28,651 bases of DNA from a virus: the IMG/VR virus record IMGVR_UViG_3300045962_000019, positions 1 through 28,651 of that record. The stretch is one strand, 5' to 3'. Each line of letters begins with the position of its first letter. The stretch's first letter is position 1. The notes under the pieces are model-generated. The model had not been told where the DNA came from. It was given only the letters and a program-made list of their open reading frames with translations, and ran no database searches. Shown piece after piece: positions 2,478-26,846 of this stretch. Position numbers and translations under genes: made by a program.

Positions 2478-4352
2478 ATGGGAAAAATTATTGGAATTGA
2501 TTTAGGCACAACAAACTCTTGTGTATCAGTTATGGAAGGTTCAGAACCTATCGTAATACCTAACTCTGAGGGGAAAAGAACCACCCCTTCTATAGTAGCC
2601 TTTCTTGAAAACGAAGGTGAAAGAAAAATTGGGGACCCGGCTAAACGACAGTCTGTTATGAATCCGGAAAAGACTATTTATTCAATTAAAAGATTTATGG
2701 GTTCGACTTACGACGAATCAAAAAGTGAAATTGGTAAAATGTCTTATAAAATCTCTAAAGGGGATAATAACTCACCTAGAGTTAATATATCGGATAGAAA
2801 ATACTCCCCTCAGGAGATTTCGGCGATGGTACTTCAAAAAATGAAAAAAACCGCTGAAGAATATTTGGGTGAGAGTATTACTGAAGCCGTTATAACGGTT
2901 CCGGCGTACTTCAACGATTCTCAAAGACAAGCAACTAAAGAAGCTGGTGAAATCGCGGGATTGGACGTTAAACGTATAATCAACGAACCAACTGCCGCAG
3001 CATTAGCGTACGGTATGGACAAAAAAGGTAGTGATAAAGTTATTGTGGTATTTGACTGTGGTGGTGGAACTCACGATGTATCAATACTAGATTTAGGTGA
3101 TGGTGTATTTGAGGTACTATCAACAGATGGAGACACACACTTGGGTGGTGACGATTTTGACAATGTCATTATTGACTTCTTAAAATCAGAATACAAAAGT
3201 CAAAATGGTTTTGACTTATCTGATGACCCGGTAGCGATTCAAAGATTACGTGATTCGGCTGAAAAAGCTAAGATTGAACTTTCATCAAGTCCTGAAACTG
3301 AGATTAATTTACCTTACTTAAGTGCTGACTCAACAGGTCCTAAACATTTAGTAACAAAGTTAACAAGAGCGAAATTCGAACAATTAACGGACTCACTAAT
3401 TAAACGAACGATAGAGCCTTGTAAAACCGCCATGAAAAGTGCTAATCTTAAAGTTAGTGATATTGATGAGGTGATTTTAGTCGGTGGTACCACAAGAATT
3501 CCGGCAATTCAAAAAGCGGTAAAAGATTTCTTTGGTAAAGAACCTTCAAAAGGTGTTAATCCGGATGAAGTAGTCGCTTTAGGGGCGGCAATACAGGGTG
3601 GAGTATTAAGTGGTGACATCAACGACGTACTTTTGTTAGATGTTACACCATTATCGTTAGGTATTGAAACTATGGGTGGAGTATTCACAAAGTTAATCGA
3701 ATCTAACACTACAATACCAAGTAAAAAGTCCCAAGTGTTCTCAACAGCGGTTGATAATCAACCAACTGTGGAAATTCATGTTCTACAAGGTGAAAGAGCG
3801 ATGTCGAAAGATAATAAAACGATTGGACGTTTCCACTTAGACGGTCTACCACCTTCTCAAAGGGGTGTACCACAAATCGAAGTAACATTCGATATTGACG
3901 CGAACGGAATTATAAACGTATCGGCAGTGGATAAGGGTACTAATAAAACCCAATCAATTCGTATCGAATCTTCATCAGGTTTATCTAAAGAAGAAATTGA
4001 AAGGATGAAATCGGAAGCTGAAGAAAATGCTGAATCTGACAACAAAATGAAGGAAGAAATCGAAACATTAAATTCCGCAGATAACTTAATTTTCCAAAGT
4101 AAAAAAAGTATGGAGGAAATGAGTGATAAAATATCGGAAGACGAAAAGGAGGAGTTAAATGGTCTGATTGAAAAACTAAAAGATTCTCATTCTAAAAAAG
4201 AAATAGAGAATATTAAAACGTATATGGACGACCTAAATTCCAAATTTCAATCTATAAGTCAAAAGATGTATGAAAACACATCTTCAGATGTACCCGAAGG
4301 TGACGGAATCGATGTGGAAGCATCAGATGTTGAGTTTGAGGAAGTTAAGTAA
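2478..4352 (+). CDS. dnaK: Hsp70 chaperone DnaK
   Basis: A full-length 624-residue DnaK, an ATP-driven chaperone that binds exposed hydrophobic peptide stretches. The nucleotide-binding domain has GIDLGTTNS (6-14), the VPAYFND segment (141-147), [11 protein letters not shown] (169-179), DCGGGTHD (193-200) and GGTTRIP (336-342). The interdomain linker is [13 protein letters not shown] (383-395). The substrate-binding domain has GERAMSKDN and [18 protein letters not shown], and a charged helical lid ends in a typical acidic EFEEVK tail. GGGTHD (instead of the common GGGTFD) with [15 protein letters not shown] is typical of Bacteroidota DnaK, which suggests capture from a host; Cys194 replaces the usual Leu. 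No dnaJ or grpE is nearby, so it would have to use host co-chaperones. It is a single-gene unit with its own promoter and terminator. Confidence 0.97.
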
Positions 4353-7565: not shown

Positions 7566-7629
7566 ATCTTTATTTTATTATAGTTAGAATATTTTATTTA
7601 ATCAAATAAATATTCATTTTTTATTTTAG

Positions 7630-7796
7630 CGGATAGAGGGGGAGTCGAACCCCCAATTAACCAATTCCCACGTTCTTAAGTTGCGTAGGTACCAGGCTCT
7701 ATTCTTGTTTTAAACGGTATTCCCTATGATTGACCGACCTCAGCGAACTGAGTTCCCACATTGCCATAAATTTACTTTTTCACCTGGTGTCTATCC
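7630..7796 (-). ncRNA. tRNA-like RNA with a large insertion in the D-arm position
   Basis: Read on the minus strand, the following elements appear in order. A 7-bp acceptor stem, GGATAGA (7796-7790) with TCTATCC (7637-7631), is perfect. A 6-bp helix ACCAGG (7788-7783)/CCTGGT (7696-7691) closes an 86-nt insert. An anticodon-arm-like helix CCTACG/CGTGGG has an 11-nt loop, CAACTTAAGAA. A short class-II-like variable arm AATT-GGTT-AATT follows, then a canonical T arm GGGGG-TTCGACT-CCCCC. The base after the acceptor is G; no CCA is encoded. The insert has a CTCAG-TTCG-CTGAG hairpin. Standard tmRNA 5' sequence and an ALAA-type tag are absent. It could be a reduced tmRNA-like RNA, a tRNA carrying an intron, or a new tRNA-like RNA. 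Confidence 0.6.
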
Positions 7797-7807
7797 GATA
7801 TAGTTCT

Positions 7808-7849
7808 TATTAGGGGTGGTCGCGTTGCCATCAGGCCACCTAATATTTA
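7808..7849 (-). other. Hairpin just upstream of the tRNA-like RNA
   Basis: On the minus strand ATTAGGTGG pairs with CCACC-CCTAAT (one bulge) around a GC-rich loop containing CTGATGGCAACGCG. It lies 11-12 bases before the 5' end of the tRNA-like RNA and may be part of the same transcript. Confidence 0.45.
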
Positions 7850-7880
7850 ATTGAGTACGATATCAAATACTCAAACAGAA

Positions 7881-8608: not shown

Positions 8609-9034
8609 ATGTTAAAAACAAAACAAGGAGACACCGTAAAGGTAAATTACACAGGAAAACTAGAAGATGGTACAGTTTTCGACACATCATTAACTGAAGG
8701 TAGAACACCAATAGAAGCTAAGTTGGGTGAGGGTCAACTAATTAAAGGTTTCGAAAACGCACTATATGATATGTCAGAAGGTGAAAAAAAGGTGGTTGAG
8801 ATTGCACCTGAAGATGCTTATGGAGACGTAAAAGATTTTATGGTTAGTGAAGTACCATTAAATCAATTACCTGAACAAGTTAAAGTTGGTGAAATGTTAC
8901 AAGGTCAAGGACCACAAGGACCTATTAACGTTAAAGTCGTTGAAATTAAAGAGGAGGTTGCTGTGGTAGATGCTAACCATCCATTAGCAGGTAAAAAACT
9001 GATATTCGATTTAGAATTAGTTGGCATAAATTAA
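8609..9034 (+). CDS. FKBP-type peptidyl-prolyl cis-trans isomerase, SlyD-like
   Basis: A 141-residue protein-folding catalyst. The FKBP part has VKVNYTGKLEDGTVFDTS near residues 10-27, GEGQLIKGFENALYDMSEGE at ~41-60 and APEDAYG. An inserted IF-like flap (about residues 75-120: VPLNQLPEQVKVGEMLQGQG, NVKVVEIKEEVAVVDANHPLAGK) then returns to the FKBP strand LIFDLELVGI. This order is that of SlyD/FkpB-type isomerases, which combine proline isomerisation with chaperone activity. The His/Cys-rich SlyD tail is absent. With DnaK and ClpP it makes up a phage-borne protein quality-control set. Confidence 0.94.
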   Translation: MLKTKQGDTVKVNYTGKLEDGTVFDTSLTEGRTPIEAKLGEGQLIKGFENALYDMSEGEKKVVEIAPEDAYGDVKDFMVSEVPLNQLPEQVKVGEMLQGQGPQGPINVKVVEIKEEVAVVDANHPLAGKKLIFDLELVGIN

Positions 9035-9729: not shown

Positions 9730-10872
9730 TTAATTATTTATTATTTTACTTATTTTTCTCGCCAATTCTCTAAACCAATGTTTACCATGTCCTCGTGTTG
9801 TTTCAGCCGCAGTACCTATTCTAATACCACTTGTTTCAATAAAACTTCTTGGGTCATTAGGTATTCCATTCTTATTAACAGTGATACCATTTTCTTCTAA
9901 CATATCCGCAATCACTCTCCCACTGTGTTTTTTACTTGATAAATCAATTAAAATTAAATGTGAGTCCGTACCATCAGTTAAAATTGGTATATTATTATCC
10001 TTAAATACGTCACACATGTGTTTAGCATTTTCTTTTACTTTTAAACAATACTCCTTAAACTCTGATGTATTAGCTTCAATAAAACACTGTGCCTTTGCGG
10101 CTATTATATGCATTAACGGACCACCTTGTGTTCCCGGAAATATAGCACCGTTTATCTTTTTTGTATAATCTGAATTATTCCATATAATTATACCCCCTCT
10201 TGGACCTCTAAGTGTTTTGTGAGTTGTTGAGGTTACCACATCGGCATACTCAATTGGGTTTGGATATTCACCACCCGCAATAAGACCTGAATAATGAGCC
10301 ATATCAACTAATAAAATAGCACCTACTTCATCAGATATTTCCCTAAACTTTTTCCAATCGATTATCCTCGAGTACGCACTTGCCCCCGCTATAACCATTT
10401 TAGGTTTAACCTCTAACGCTTTAGTTCGTATATCATCATAGTTTAAATAACCATTTTCATCCACACCATATGAATGAGCGTTATATACTTTACCTGAAAT
10501 ATTAGGTTTACTTCCATGAGATAAATGACCACCACTTGATAAGTCCATTCCAAGTATTGTATCACCAGGTTTTAGGAACGCTTGAAATACTGCGGTATTT
10601 GCATTTGCCCCACAATGAGGTTGTACATTCGCAAAGTTACAACCGTATAACTTTTTGAGTTCCTCTATCGCAAGATTCTCTACCTCATCCATGTGTTCAC
10701 ATCCATTGTAGTATCTCTTTCCGGGATATCCTTCAGCATATTTATTAGTGAATACCGAACCAGCCAATCCCATAATGGCCTCAGATGCGAAGTTCTCACT
10801 TGCAATTAGTTCAATAGTATTTGATTGCCTATTCTTTTCTTTGTTGAGTATTTCTATAATTCTTTTATCCAT
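9730..10872 (-). CDS. glyA: Serine hydroxymethyltransferase
   Basis: A 380-residue PLP enzyme that converts serine and tetrahydrofolate to glycine and 5,10-methylene-tetrahydrofolate. It has IELIASENFAS (20-30), the YAEGYPGKRYY segment (45-55), CGANANTAV (87-95), DMAHYSGL (190-197) and the PLP-lysine motif STTHKTLRGPRGG with Lys219. It ends with SGIRIGTAAETTRG. It is about 35-40 residues shorter than typical bacterial GlyA (~417), mostly in the C-terminal part, with no frameshift visible. It follows thyA by 38 bases on the same strand; ThyA consumes the methylene-THF this enzyme makes, so the two form a thymidylate-supply pair. Confidence 0.96.
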   Translation of the reverse strand: MDKRIIEILNKEKNRQSNTIELIASENFASEAIMGLAGSVFTNKYAEGYPGKRYYNGCEHMDEVENLAIEELKKLYGCNFANVQPHCGANANTAVFQAFLKPGDTILGMDLSSGGHLSHGSKPNISGKVYNAHSYGVDENGYLNYDDIRTKALEVKPKMVIAGASAYSRIIDWKKFREISDEVGAILLVDMAHYSGLIAGGEYPNPIEYADVVTSTTHKTLRGPRGGIIIWNNSDYTKKINGAIFPGTQGGPLMHIIAAKAQCFIEANTSEFKEYCLKVKENAKHMCDVFKDNNIPILTDGTDSHLILIDLSSKKHSGRVIADMLEENGITVNKNGIPNDPRSFIETSGIRIGTAAETTRGHGKHWFRELARKISKIINN

Positions 10873-13019: not shown

Positions 13020-13763
13020 ATGAATTACGGAAAAGAATTCCAAAAATACGCAATGAGTGACCATAAAATTTCTTCATTGGAAATGGACCAATATGGTGAC
13101 TTAGTTAAAGGGTCTATGACACCTTACATTTTAGAAGAGAGAGAAATGAGAGCCACACAATTAGATATATTCTCTAGATTAATGATGGATAGAATTATAT
13201 GGGTTTCAAGTGATGTTAATAGTAAAATGGCTTCGATAATTCAAGCACAACTAATGTTCTTAGATACTACGGACACTCAAGATATAAATTTATATTTAGA
13301 TACTCCGGGTGGTAGTGTACTTTCAGGTCTTGGTATTAGAGATACAATGAACTATGTTAAATCCGACATCTCCACTACTAATGTTGGTATGTGCGCATCT
13401 ATGGGTTCAATATTATTATCTTCAGGTACAAAAGGTAAACGTAATTCTTTAATATTTTCTAAGGTTATGACCCATATGGTTAGTCATGGTACTCAAGGTA
13501 ATATTCAAGACACAAGGATTAACCAAATTGAAGCCGAAAAGTATAACTATATGTTATTTAAAATATTATCTCAAAATTCCGGGAAGAGTTTTGATGAGGT
13601 TTACGAATTATCACGTAATGATAAATGGTTTAACTCAGATGAAGCCAAAAAGTTTGGTTTGATTGATAATGTGATTGGTACTGATAATAACCCAACAATC
13701 ACTGAAATGATGAAAGGTTTTGACTCTTATTACAAAAAAGAGGTGATGAAACGAAACTCATAG
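13020..13763 (+). CDS. clpP: ClpP-like serine protease
   Basis: A 247-residue ClpP, the barrel-forming protease that works with Clp ATPases. The catalytic triad can be read as Ser127 (GMCASMG), His152 (MTHMVSHG) and Asp201 (RNDKWF). The oxyanion/strand segment is LYLDTPGGSVLSGLGIRDTM. The start MNYGKEFQKYAMSDH and the segments MTPYILEERE and DIFSRLMMDRI are close to Bacteroidota ClpP, pointing to capture from such a host. The usual HQPLGG after the catalytic His is changed to HMVSHG, which could alter the handle/substrate region. No Clp ATPase is in the window. It could remodel proteolysis by mixing with host subunits or mature phage proteins (inference). Confidence 0.94.
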   Translation: MNYGKEFQKYAMSDHKISSLEMDQYGDLVKGSMTPYILEEREMRATQLDIFSRLMMDRIIWVSSDVNSKMASIIQAQLMFLDTTDTQDINLYLDTPGGSVLSGLGIRDTMNYVKSDISTTNVGMCASMGSILLSSGTKGKRNSLIFSKVMTHMVSHGTQGNIQDTRINQIEAEKYNYMLFKILSQNSGKSFDEVYELSRNDKWFNSDEAKKFGLIDNVIGTDNNPTITEMMKGFDSYYKKEVMKRNS

Positions 13764-25948: not shown

Positions 25949-25994
25949 AATTTCTGTTTTTTTAATTTAATTTTTATGTCAAAGAACTCACTTG

Positions 25995-26068
25995 TGGACC
26001 TTGATGGACTCGAACCATCGACCTACGCATTATGAGTGCGGTGCTCTAACCAACTGAGCTAAAAGTCC
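25995..26068 (-). tRNA. tRNA-Met (anticodon CAT)
   Basis: Acceptor GGACTTT pairs with AAGGTCC (one G-T), anticodon loop CTCATAA, T arm GATGG-TTCGAGT-CCATC, discriminator A. No CCA is encoded. A CAT anticodon can also be tRNA-Ile2 if lysidine-modified; the sequence alone does not decide. Confidence 0.93.
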
Positions 26069-26071
26069 TAA

Positions 26072-26148
26072 TGGTGAACCCGGTAGGATTCGAACCTACG
26101 ACCGTCTCCTTAGAAGGGAGATGCTCTATCCATCTGAGCTACGAGTCC
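26072..26148 (-). tRNA. tRNA-Arg (anticodon TCT)
   Basis: Acceptor GGACTCG/CGGGTTC, anticodon loop CTTCTAA, T arm GTAGG-TTCGAAT-CCTAC; CCA is encoded at the 3' end (included in the coordinates). It reads AGA/AGG, in line with an AT-rich genome. Confidence 0.94.
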
Positions 26149-26152
26149 ATTG

Positions 26153-26224
26153 TACTCCGTAGGAGAATCGAACTCCTATTTTTAGGATGAAAACCTAATG
26201 TCCTAACCGTTAGACGAACGGAGC
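26153..26224 (-). tRNA. tRNA-Glu (anticodon TTC)
   Basis: Acceptor GCTCCGT/ACGGAGT, D-arm GTCTAACGGTTAGGAC typical of tRNA-Glu, anticodon loop TTTTCAT, T arm AGGAG-TTCGATT-CTCCT, discriminator A. CCA is not encoded. Confidence 0.94.
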
Positions 26225-26352
26225 AAATAAGAGAGGGTTCGGGTCTTTCAAGGTTTCTGATAAATGATTTGTTTACGCTCTGACTACTCTAAACCCTTTT
26301 TCGTCATTTTAACACCATCATCTATTACAGCTTCACTGTCTCTCTTGTAGTA
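26225..26352 (-). other. Leader of the Glu-Arg-Met tRNA transcript, no gene seen
   Basis: Between the -7 element at 26360-26353 and tRNA-Glu. It has GGGTTTAGAG... and ...GAACCC halves that can pair over a ~60-base span, but no tRNA fold or open frame could be supported. Confidence 0.35.
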
Positions 26353-26360
26353 CAAATATA
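26353..26360 (-). promoter_or_regulatory. Bacteroidota -7 element TATATTTG, tRNA cluster promoter
   Basis: TATATTTG on the minus strand about 130 bases before tRNA-Glu; no clear TTTG -33 box. Confidence 0.5.
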
Positions 26361-26388
26361 CATTATATTTTCTGTAATATAAAGTTAT

Positions 26389-26745
26389 TTAATTATATAA
26401 ACTGGCAATGTGTTCATTTACTCCGTAATCAAGTAGAATGTATTTATTACCATCTATACCCCAATTTTTAGAATTGTGAAGGTCGCAGTTATCGAAATCA
26501 AACTCATGAATTAATGATTTGATTTCTTTTACCTTTGTAAATGGTATTGATGAAACGACATTATATCTCTTCTGACAGACAACACCCATCCACATCCATT
26601 TCAACTCACCCAACAAAGCCACATTATTGTACTTATCCCAAATCTTCTTTTCATTAAGTCCTTGTAAATATCCTTTTCTACTTACCGGAATCTTGATAAC
26701 TACATTCCTTAGAATGAGCACCAATCTTGTTGAGTATTTAATCAT
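26389..26745 (-). CDS. Minimal protein-kinase-like protein, 118 residues
   Basis: I chose the ATG at 26745, 12 bases after tRNA-Leu; an in-frame ATG at 26793 lies inside the tRNA. The motif order is that of protein kinases, compressed: Lys18 in NVVIKIPVS (beta-3 Lys), Glu32 in LNEKKIW (helix C), a hinge-like LKWMWMGVV, catalytic loop CDLHNSKNWG (Asp88, His90, Asn91/94) and YILLDYG (Asp106, a DYG version of DFG). No activation loop or C-lobe helices follow, so it could be a pseudokinase or a small APH-like enzyme. From memory, similar short proteins occur in marine phages. Confidence 0.7.
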   Translation of the reverse strand: MIKYSTRLVLILRNVVIKIPVSRKGYLQGLNEKKIWDKYNNVALLGELKWMWMGVVCQKRYNVVSSIPFTKVKEIKSLIHEFDFDNCDLHNSKNWGIDGNKYILLDYGVNEHIASLYN

Positions 26746-26757
26746 ATCTTTCTTATT

Positions 26758-26846
26758 TGGTACCTCGGGCCGGGGTCGAACCGGCACGGACATTATTGTC
26801 CACAGGATTTTAAGTCCGGCGTGTCTACCAATTCCACCACCGAGGC
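26758..26846 (-). tRNA. tRNA-Leu (anticodon TAA)
   Basis: Acceptor GCCTCGG/CCGAGGT, anticodon loop CTTAAAA, long class-II variable arm (TGGACAATAATGTCC), T arm GCCGG-TTCGACC-CCGGC, discriminator A and encoded CCA (included). It reads TTA, the commonest Leu codon here. Confidence 0.95.

Follow-up and report, generated by a model that had tools for sequence, protein, structure and literature searches.

What kind of RNA is encoded at positions 7796-7630 on the minus strand of the window, by which we mean the whole 28,651-base IMG/VR viral contig that was analysed? The first-pass annotation, which gave no strand, had described a tRNA-like RNA, here called RNA1, with a large insert where the D arm should be, and had offered three options: a reduced tmRNA, a tRNA interrupted by an intron, or a new class of phage tRNA-like RNA. 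Every element that it listed was found on the minus strand: a perfect 7-bp acceptor stem (8 bp counting C7797-G7630), a 6-bp helix (P2) closing an 86-nt insert (7782-7697) that has a hairpin of its own, an anticodon-arm-like helix with an 11-nt loop (P4), a variable arm, a T arm, a 3' end with no encoded CCA, and an upstream hairpin, which proved to be part of the conserved unit in seven of eight contigs and to covary. The layout of the window copy is acceptor, one linking base, P2 with the insert, P4, AATTGGTTAATT and T arm.

RNA1 matches no catalogued RNA family in Rfam. The search that had been proposed as a check, with the tmRNA, group I intron and tRNA models, called no family at the locus. 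ARAGORN and Rfam found four ordinary tRNAs at 25994-26846 and none at RNA1; the tRNA model RF00005 gave no match there at its gathering threshold (29 bits) and none was listed at E ≤ 10, and the group I intron model gave none at E ≤ 10. At permissive thresholds the sole relevant match was to tmRNA, over the 17 nt of the T arm (13.5 bits, cut-off 47); two plastid cis-regulatory families gave sub-threshold matches to the other strand of the T arm region. No description of RNA1 was found in the literature searched.

Seven related viral contigs were identified, six of them close (L002, which is the same contig as L065, L064, L066, L067, L068 and L069, the last with a 27-nt deletion in the insert) and one distant (L127). 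The close relatives were found by pattern scans and by a search with the neighbouring flavodoxin-like protein. L127, the most divergent, was matched at 118.5 bits (E 9e-34) by covariance model R2, which replaced a model built on an automatic consensus fold (R1) that had lost P2. It retains the architecture, the closing helix and an invariant insert core of about 25 nt, differs in most of the variable parts, and is missing both 5' hairpins. Only eight contigs thus make up the sample, and six of these are closely similar. The features, in the 5' to 3' order of the RNA and with their conservation among the eight, are as follows.

7852-7873, minus strand: 5' hairpin A, TGAGTA...TACTCA, z = -3.2, lying 5' of hairpin B
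7809-7844, minus strand: 5' hairpin B with loop CCTGATGGCAACGCGACCA, the loop invariant in seven contigs; L127 is without it
7790-7796, minus strand: acceptor, 5' strand GGATAGA; covaries (GGATAGA/TCTATCC, GGACAGA/TCTGTCC, GCGTAGA/TCTACGC)
7783-7788, minus strand: P2 at the D-arm position, 5' strand ACCAGG; pairs in 8/8, the first pair alone varying (A-U or G-U)
7757-7782, minus strand: invariant insert core TGAAAAAGTAAATTTATGGCAATGTG, the same in 8/8 except for one A fewer in L069 and L127
7739-7752, minus strand: insert hairpin CTCAG-TTCG-CTGAG, invariant in seven; L127 has a different possible hairpin instead
7715-7736, minus strand: possible second insert hairpin CGGT...ACCG, without covariation support and gone in the L069 deletion
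7686-7703, minus strand: second invariant stretch AATAGAGCCTGGTACCTA (P2 3' strand, junction and start of P4), the same in 8/8
7691-7696, minus strand: P2, 3' strand CCTGGT; pairs in 8/8
7667-7689, minus strand: P4, anticodon-arm-like hairpin CCTACG-CAACTTAAGAA-CGTGGG; stem covaries with CCTAAG/CTTAGG in L127
7655-7666, minus strand: AATTGGTTAATT, a short variable arm or displaced D-loop-like hairpin; its TGGTTAATTG is invariant in 8/8
7638-7654, minus strand: T arm GGGGG-TTCGACT-CCCCC; stem covaries (GGGGG/CCCCC, GAAGG/CCTTC, GAGGG/CCCTC)
7631-7637, minus strand: acceptor, 3' strand TCTATCC, followed by G73 (7630) and C, without encoded CCA

In the searches made, RNA1 is restricted to viral contigs. 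Among 50 viral records there was no other strong match, and sequence similarity searches of INPHARED phages returned nothing but T-arm matches, to tRNA-Ser and similar genes, for the window copy and only weak partial matches for L127; plasmids gave only a 24-nt chance match. A search with R2 through 399 genomes from a single bacterial family, the one to which the Aureitalea genome behind L074 belongs, was made with strict filters and no positive control and found no match. Five pattern matches in bacterial genome contigs lie inside coding sequence and look like chance, and L070 and L128-L140 were set aside as chance pattern matches in genes or as ordinary tRNAs.

Since the folding energy does not stand out (z = -1.1 for the tRNA-like part and 0.0 with flanks), one sequence cannot settle the structure; the relatives settle it. 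In the eight-sequence alignment, which was fitted to the model and so leans toward it, 99.7% of cells were paired versus 28-49% for slid structures, and nine pairs (18 cells) had changed on both sides where slid structures gave at most one such pair. Three of the nine lie in the acceptor, two in the T stem, one in the anticodon-like stem and three in hairpin B, one of these last resting on a doubtful fit of L127. When the seven closer copies were aligned independently with MAFFT, the picture was the same (5 pairs, 12 cells). Hairpin B occurs with the stems ATTAGG/CCTAAT, ATTAAG/CTTAAT and ATTAGA/TCTAAT, and in hairpin A, read by eye, GAGTA/TACTC is replaced by GAGAG/CTCTC in relatives. Judged by these sequence changes, which keep the pairing across related contigs, the fold is real. 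The first-pass annotation had looked to covariation in both the acceptor and the ACCAGG/CCTGGT helix. Compensatory changes bear out the acceptor, as they do the T arm helix; P2 shows no real covariation, since only its first pair varies, and because it is almost invariant its pairing is not proved in this way. A competing GCCA/UGGC pairing exists for P2 and is disfavoured by the window copy, which has ACCA. The insert hairpins, like P2, hardly vary, and covariation says nothing on either.

Invariant in all eight copies are TGAAAA(A)GTAAATTTATGGCAATGTG in the insert, the stretch around the P2 3' strand, the element just before the T arm and the T loop; length changes of 1 and 2 nt sit immediately 5' of that element. 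The insert hairpins are not conserved across the eight. The anticodon-like loop varies in length (11, 10 or 7 nt) and in sequence (the window form above, CAACTAGGAA, CAGCTTAAGAA and CCTAGAA), and RNA1 has neither a canonical D arm nor a 7-nt anticodon loop with a conserved triplet; a decoding or suppressor tRNA was rejected on the variation of this loop. A small ORF in the insert reads MAMWELSSLRSVNHREYRLKQ(E/K) or a variant of it in six contigs and MAMWKLSSLRKQK in L069, where the 27-nt deletion leaves the frame intact; a short in-frame ORF is present in seven copies. In L127 it begins ATG GCA ATG and ends after three codons (MAM-stop). A peptide encoded in the insert was likewise rejected, as the changes mostly alter amino acids and L127 stops early. 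Because L127 has both a different anticodon-like loop and a broken insert ORF, RNA1 is not a tmRNA that encodes a tag, nor is it a tRNA used in decoding, and since the small ORF is not conserved the insert most likely acts as RNA rather than as message. In a search for antisense targets, the longest complementary stretch outside RNA1 in the contigs examined was 13 nt, at one place, and none reached 14 nt.

Other unusual tRNA-like RNAs were noticed in these phages. Directly downstream of the L127 copy of RNA1 lies RNA2 (L127:2545-2688), a tRNA with a structured insert of about 72 nt in the anticodon loop; it has an acceptor, D arm, T arm and A73, scores 47.8 bits to Rfam tRNA, and is tRNA-Trp according to ARAGORN with introns allowed. 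RNA3 is a 77-nt tRNA-like RNA without a D arm, in which a D-stem-like helix closes around the anticodon arm and a D-loop-like AAUUGGUUA stands directly before the T arm, as in RNA1. Its anticodon-like loops, CU(U/G)AUA(C/A), are of the Ile type (UAU or GAU) and could read isoleucine codons, and double changes were seen in 15 of its 19 pairs. The relatives include unannotated copies in two crAss-like phages and one 462-kb phage, and one copy comes from a bacterial genome in the same class as G051, on a contig that looks like a chromosome.

RNA3: L064:6436-6513 (G046:16529-16606); G047:23430-23507; G048:6979-7056; L099
RNA3 relatives: OQ198717 95577-95654; NC_055901 68444-68522; LR756500 118367-118444; L161 about 7613-7690

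An acceptor/T-arm scan also picked out a 101-nt tRNA-like sequence with a long middle at L043:574-674, and large relatives of these phages (L103/L106, L107, L108, L110, L111) carry tmRNAs whose tags do not end in ALAA (for example DYAVAA, DLAVAA, EEVAVA, LAMAA).

How do the competing explanations fare? That RNA1 is a reduced or degenerate tmRNA still working in trans-translation, or else that it acts as a decoy in the tmRNA-SmpB system, would suit the T arm, which is the part that best matches tmRNA, the presence of real tmRNAs in 6 of 51 searched records of related phages, and the insert ORF that stays open in seven copies despite the deletion in L069. But that match covers the T arm only and falls far under the cut-off, an anticodon-arm-like hairpin stands where tmRNA has none, and the L127 frame is broken; the ORFs end in KQE, KQK or KLK with no degradation tag or ALAA-like degron, and A3-U70 (window copy) and G73 (8/8) replace G3-U70 and A73, so that there is no alanine identity. 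We regard this first option as very improbable. The second, a tRNA with a removable D-arm intron whose mature form is perhaps serine-like, is distinctly unlikely. It draws on a 3' end like that of phage tRNA-Ser (G73, with the next covariance model matches mostly tRNA-Ser) and on the insert-bearing tRNA that L127 also carries, but none of the intron families matches, the insert, which falls short of the size of a group I intron, is conserved better than any other part of the molecule, and its removal leaves neither a normal D loop nor a normal anticodon loop; most copies lack a normal D loop or a 7-nt anticodon loop, and the loop sequence is not conserved. The missing CCA is uninformative here, since several ordinary tRNAs of these phages lack it as well.

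Two further explanations start from particular elements. The invariant A-rich stretch and AUG of the insert might mimic a Bacteroidota start site, making RNA1 a chimera that occupies host ribosomes by means of its tRNA-like body; GUAAAUUUAUGGCAAUGUG is indeed invariant in 8/8, unlike the codons that follow. An AUG is nothing unusual in AT-rich sequence, though, the binding is putative, and UUUAU can pair with AUAGA and hide the AUG, which leaves this explanation unlikely. RNA1 might instead descend from, or share a fold with, the D-arm-less tRNA-Ile-like RNA3, with its GG loop just 5' of the T arm, and might still be charged. RNA3 is strongly covarying and the same loop element precedes the T arm in both RNAs, but what they have in common is about 9 nt and a generic T arm (21 bits, E 0.003), and RNA1 has no conserved anticodon; we think such a relationship quite improbable.

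The surroundings of RNA1 bear on how it might be expressed. The contigs form four groups: the window and G001 (L002), which are close; G046-G049; G050 (L069); and L127. Between the window and G047, RNA1 is about 91% identical, the flavodoxin gene about 73% and parts of tRNAs 80-87% (80-89% for the tRNA stretches shared between contigs overall), with one short stretch besides, and they otherwise share little DNA. No gene adjoining RNA1 is shared across the groups, and the only protein matches across groups within 6 kb were an endolysin-like gene about 5-6 kb away and one gene of the second and third groups, which sits at different distances from RNA1. RNA1 thus occurs in unrelated gene contexts, and no conserved gene neighbour or protein partner was found among the relatives. 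A leader of the flavodoxin gene was rejected, as that gene is not beside RNA1 in the G047 group. The L127 contig has genes for a single-strand DNA-binding protein, a primase and helicases; proteins of the window phage include a DnaK-like Hsp70 (2478-4352), an FKBP-type isomerase (8609-9034), a serine hydroxymethyltransferase (9730-10872) and a ClpP-like protease (13020-13763).

In five relatives (G046-G050) an AT-rich promoter-like element, TTTTTTTATGTCAATTATTTTTGGTATATTAGTA or a variant, lies directly upstream of RNA1, and variants also precede several ORFs in these contigs. In the L064 group (four relatives) a strong hairpin followed by a T run stands about 10 nt past the acceptor end (z = -5.3), although a simple terminator scan does not list it. 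By sequence pattern alone, then, some relatives appear to give RNA1 its own promoter and terminator, and the two elements together suggest that RNA1 is transcribed as a unit of its own, in the tRNA-like direction. This arrangement was not found around the window copy.

It is very likely that RNA1 represents a family of non-decoding tRNA-like RNAs, and the option of a new class fits best: the structure covaries, lacks an Rfam match and recurs in eight viral contigs. We consider it probable that RNA1 is a trans-acting phage RNA in which the tRNA body is a scaffold and the inserted domain the functional core. The tRNA outside and a fixed inner domain are kept while decoding and coding are given up, and this is the most economical reading. 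We infer that RNA1 would be transcribed as an independent, non-coding RNA, and that the acceptor and T arm are probably there for processing and stability and to be recognised by proteins that handle tRNA, candidates being RNase P, RNase Z or an exonuclease, and the CCA-adding enzyme. The core would be an asymmetric internal loop with an invariant strand of about 25 nt, closed by the invariant 6-bp helix and joined to the invariant junction. RNA1 would most likely act in trans during infection. Its candidate partner, suggested by the tRNA scaffold, is a protein or RNP involved in handling tRNA or the ribosome, for which it could be a ligand, a scaffold or a decoy; a decoy or scaffold role in particular is possible but doubtful. 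The 3' end is most like that of tRNA-Ser, also the commonest weak model match in the related phages, and descent from a tRNA-Ser gene is therefore plausible. More tentatively, RNA1 may represent a new RNA family with a regulatory or anti-host function in phages, in which a non-decoding tRNA body carries an effector domain of invariant sequence, and Bacteroidota phages may have several rewired tRNA-like RNAs of which it is one (RNA1, RNA2, RNA3). RNA1 would be a conserved phage RNA that has kept the outside of a tRNA, given up decoding and presented an invariant domain to some partner, whose identification might expose a phage weapon directed at host translation, tRNA processing or tRNA-based defence. 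Standard tRNA finders overlook such covarying tRNA-like RNAs of phages.

GOLLD and ROOL RNAs are structured non-coding RNAs, some of them in phages, and are several hundred nt long. In comparison with them (PMC12286853), RNA1 is shorter and has no Rfam match. Its 6-bp D stem and its acceptor and T stem of 13 bp, counting C(-1)-G73, resemble the bacterial 8/5-type tRNA-Sec, but its D 'loop' has about 60-86 nt instead of 4 (PMC7609411), and the UCA anticodon and long variable arm of tRNA-Sec were looked for and are absent. An insert of only about 60-86 nt, unmatched by the intron model, also separates it from group I introns with their conserved P3-P8 core. With tmRNA (RF00023) it shares the T arm and tRNA-like ends around a large insert, but it lacks the conserved tmRNA 5' end, G3-U70, a tag and a large pseudoknot domain of the usual size, and has an anticodon-like hairpin. 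RNA1 departs from tRNA (RF00005) in the insert at the D-arm position in place of a canonical D arm, in an anticodon-like loop of 7-11 nt with no conserved triplet, and in not being called by Rfam or ARAGORN; it is like tRNA, and nearest to tRNA-Ser, in its 7-bp acceptor with G73, 5-bp T stem, UUCGACU loop, junction order and short variable arm, and in 3' ends of GC(A/T)AA as in the tRNA-Ser of the same phages.
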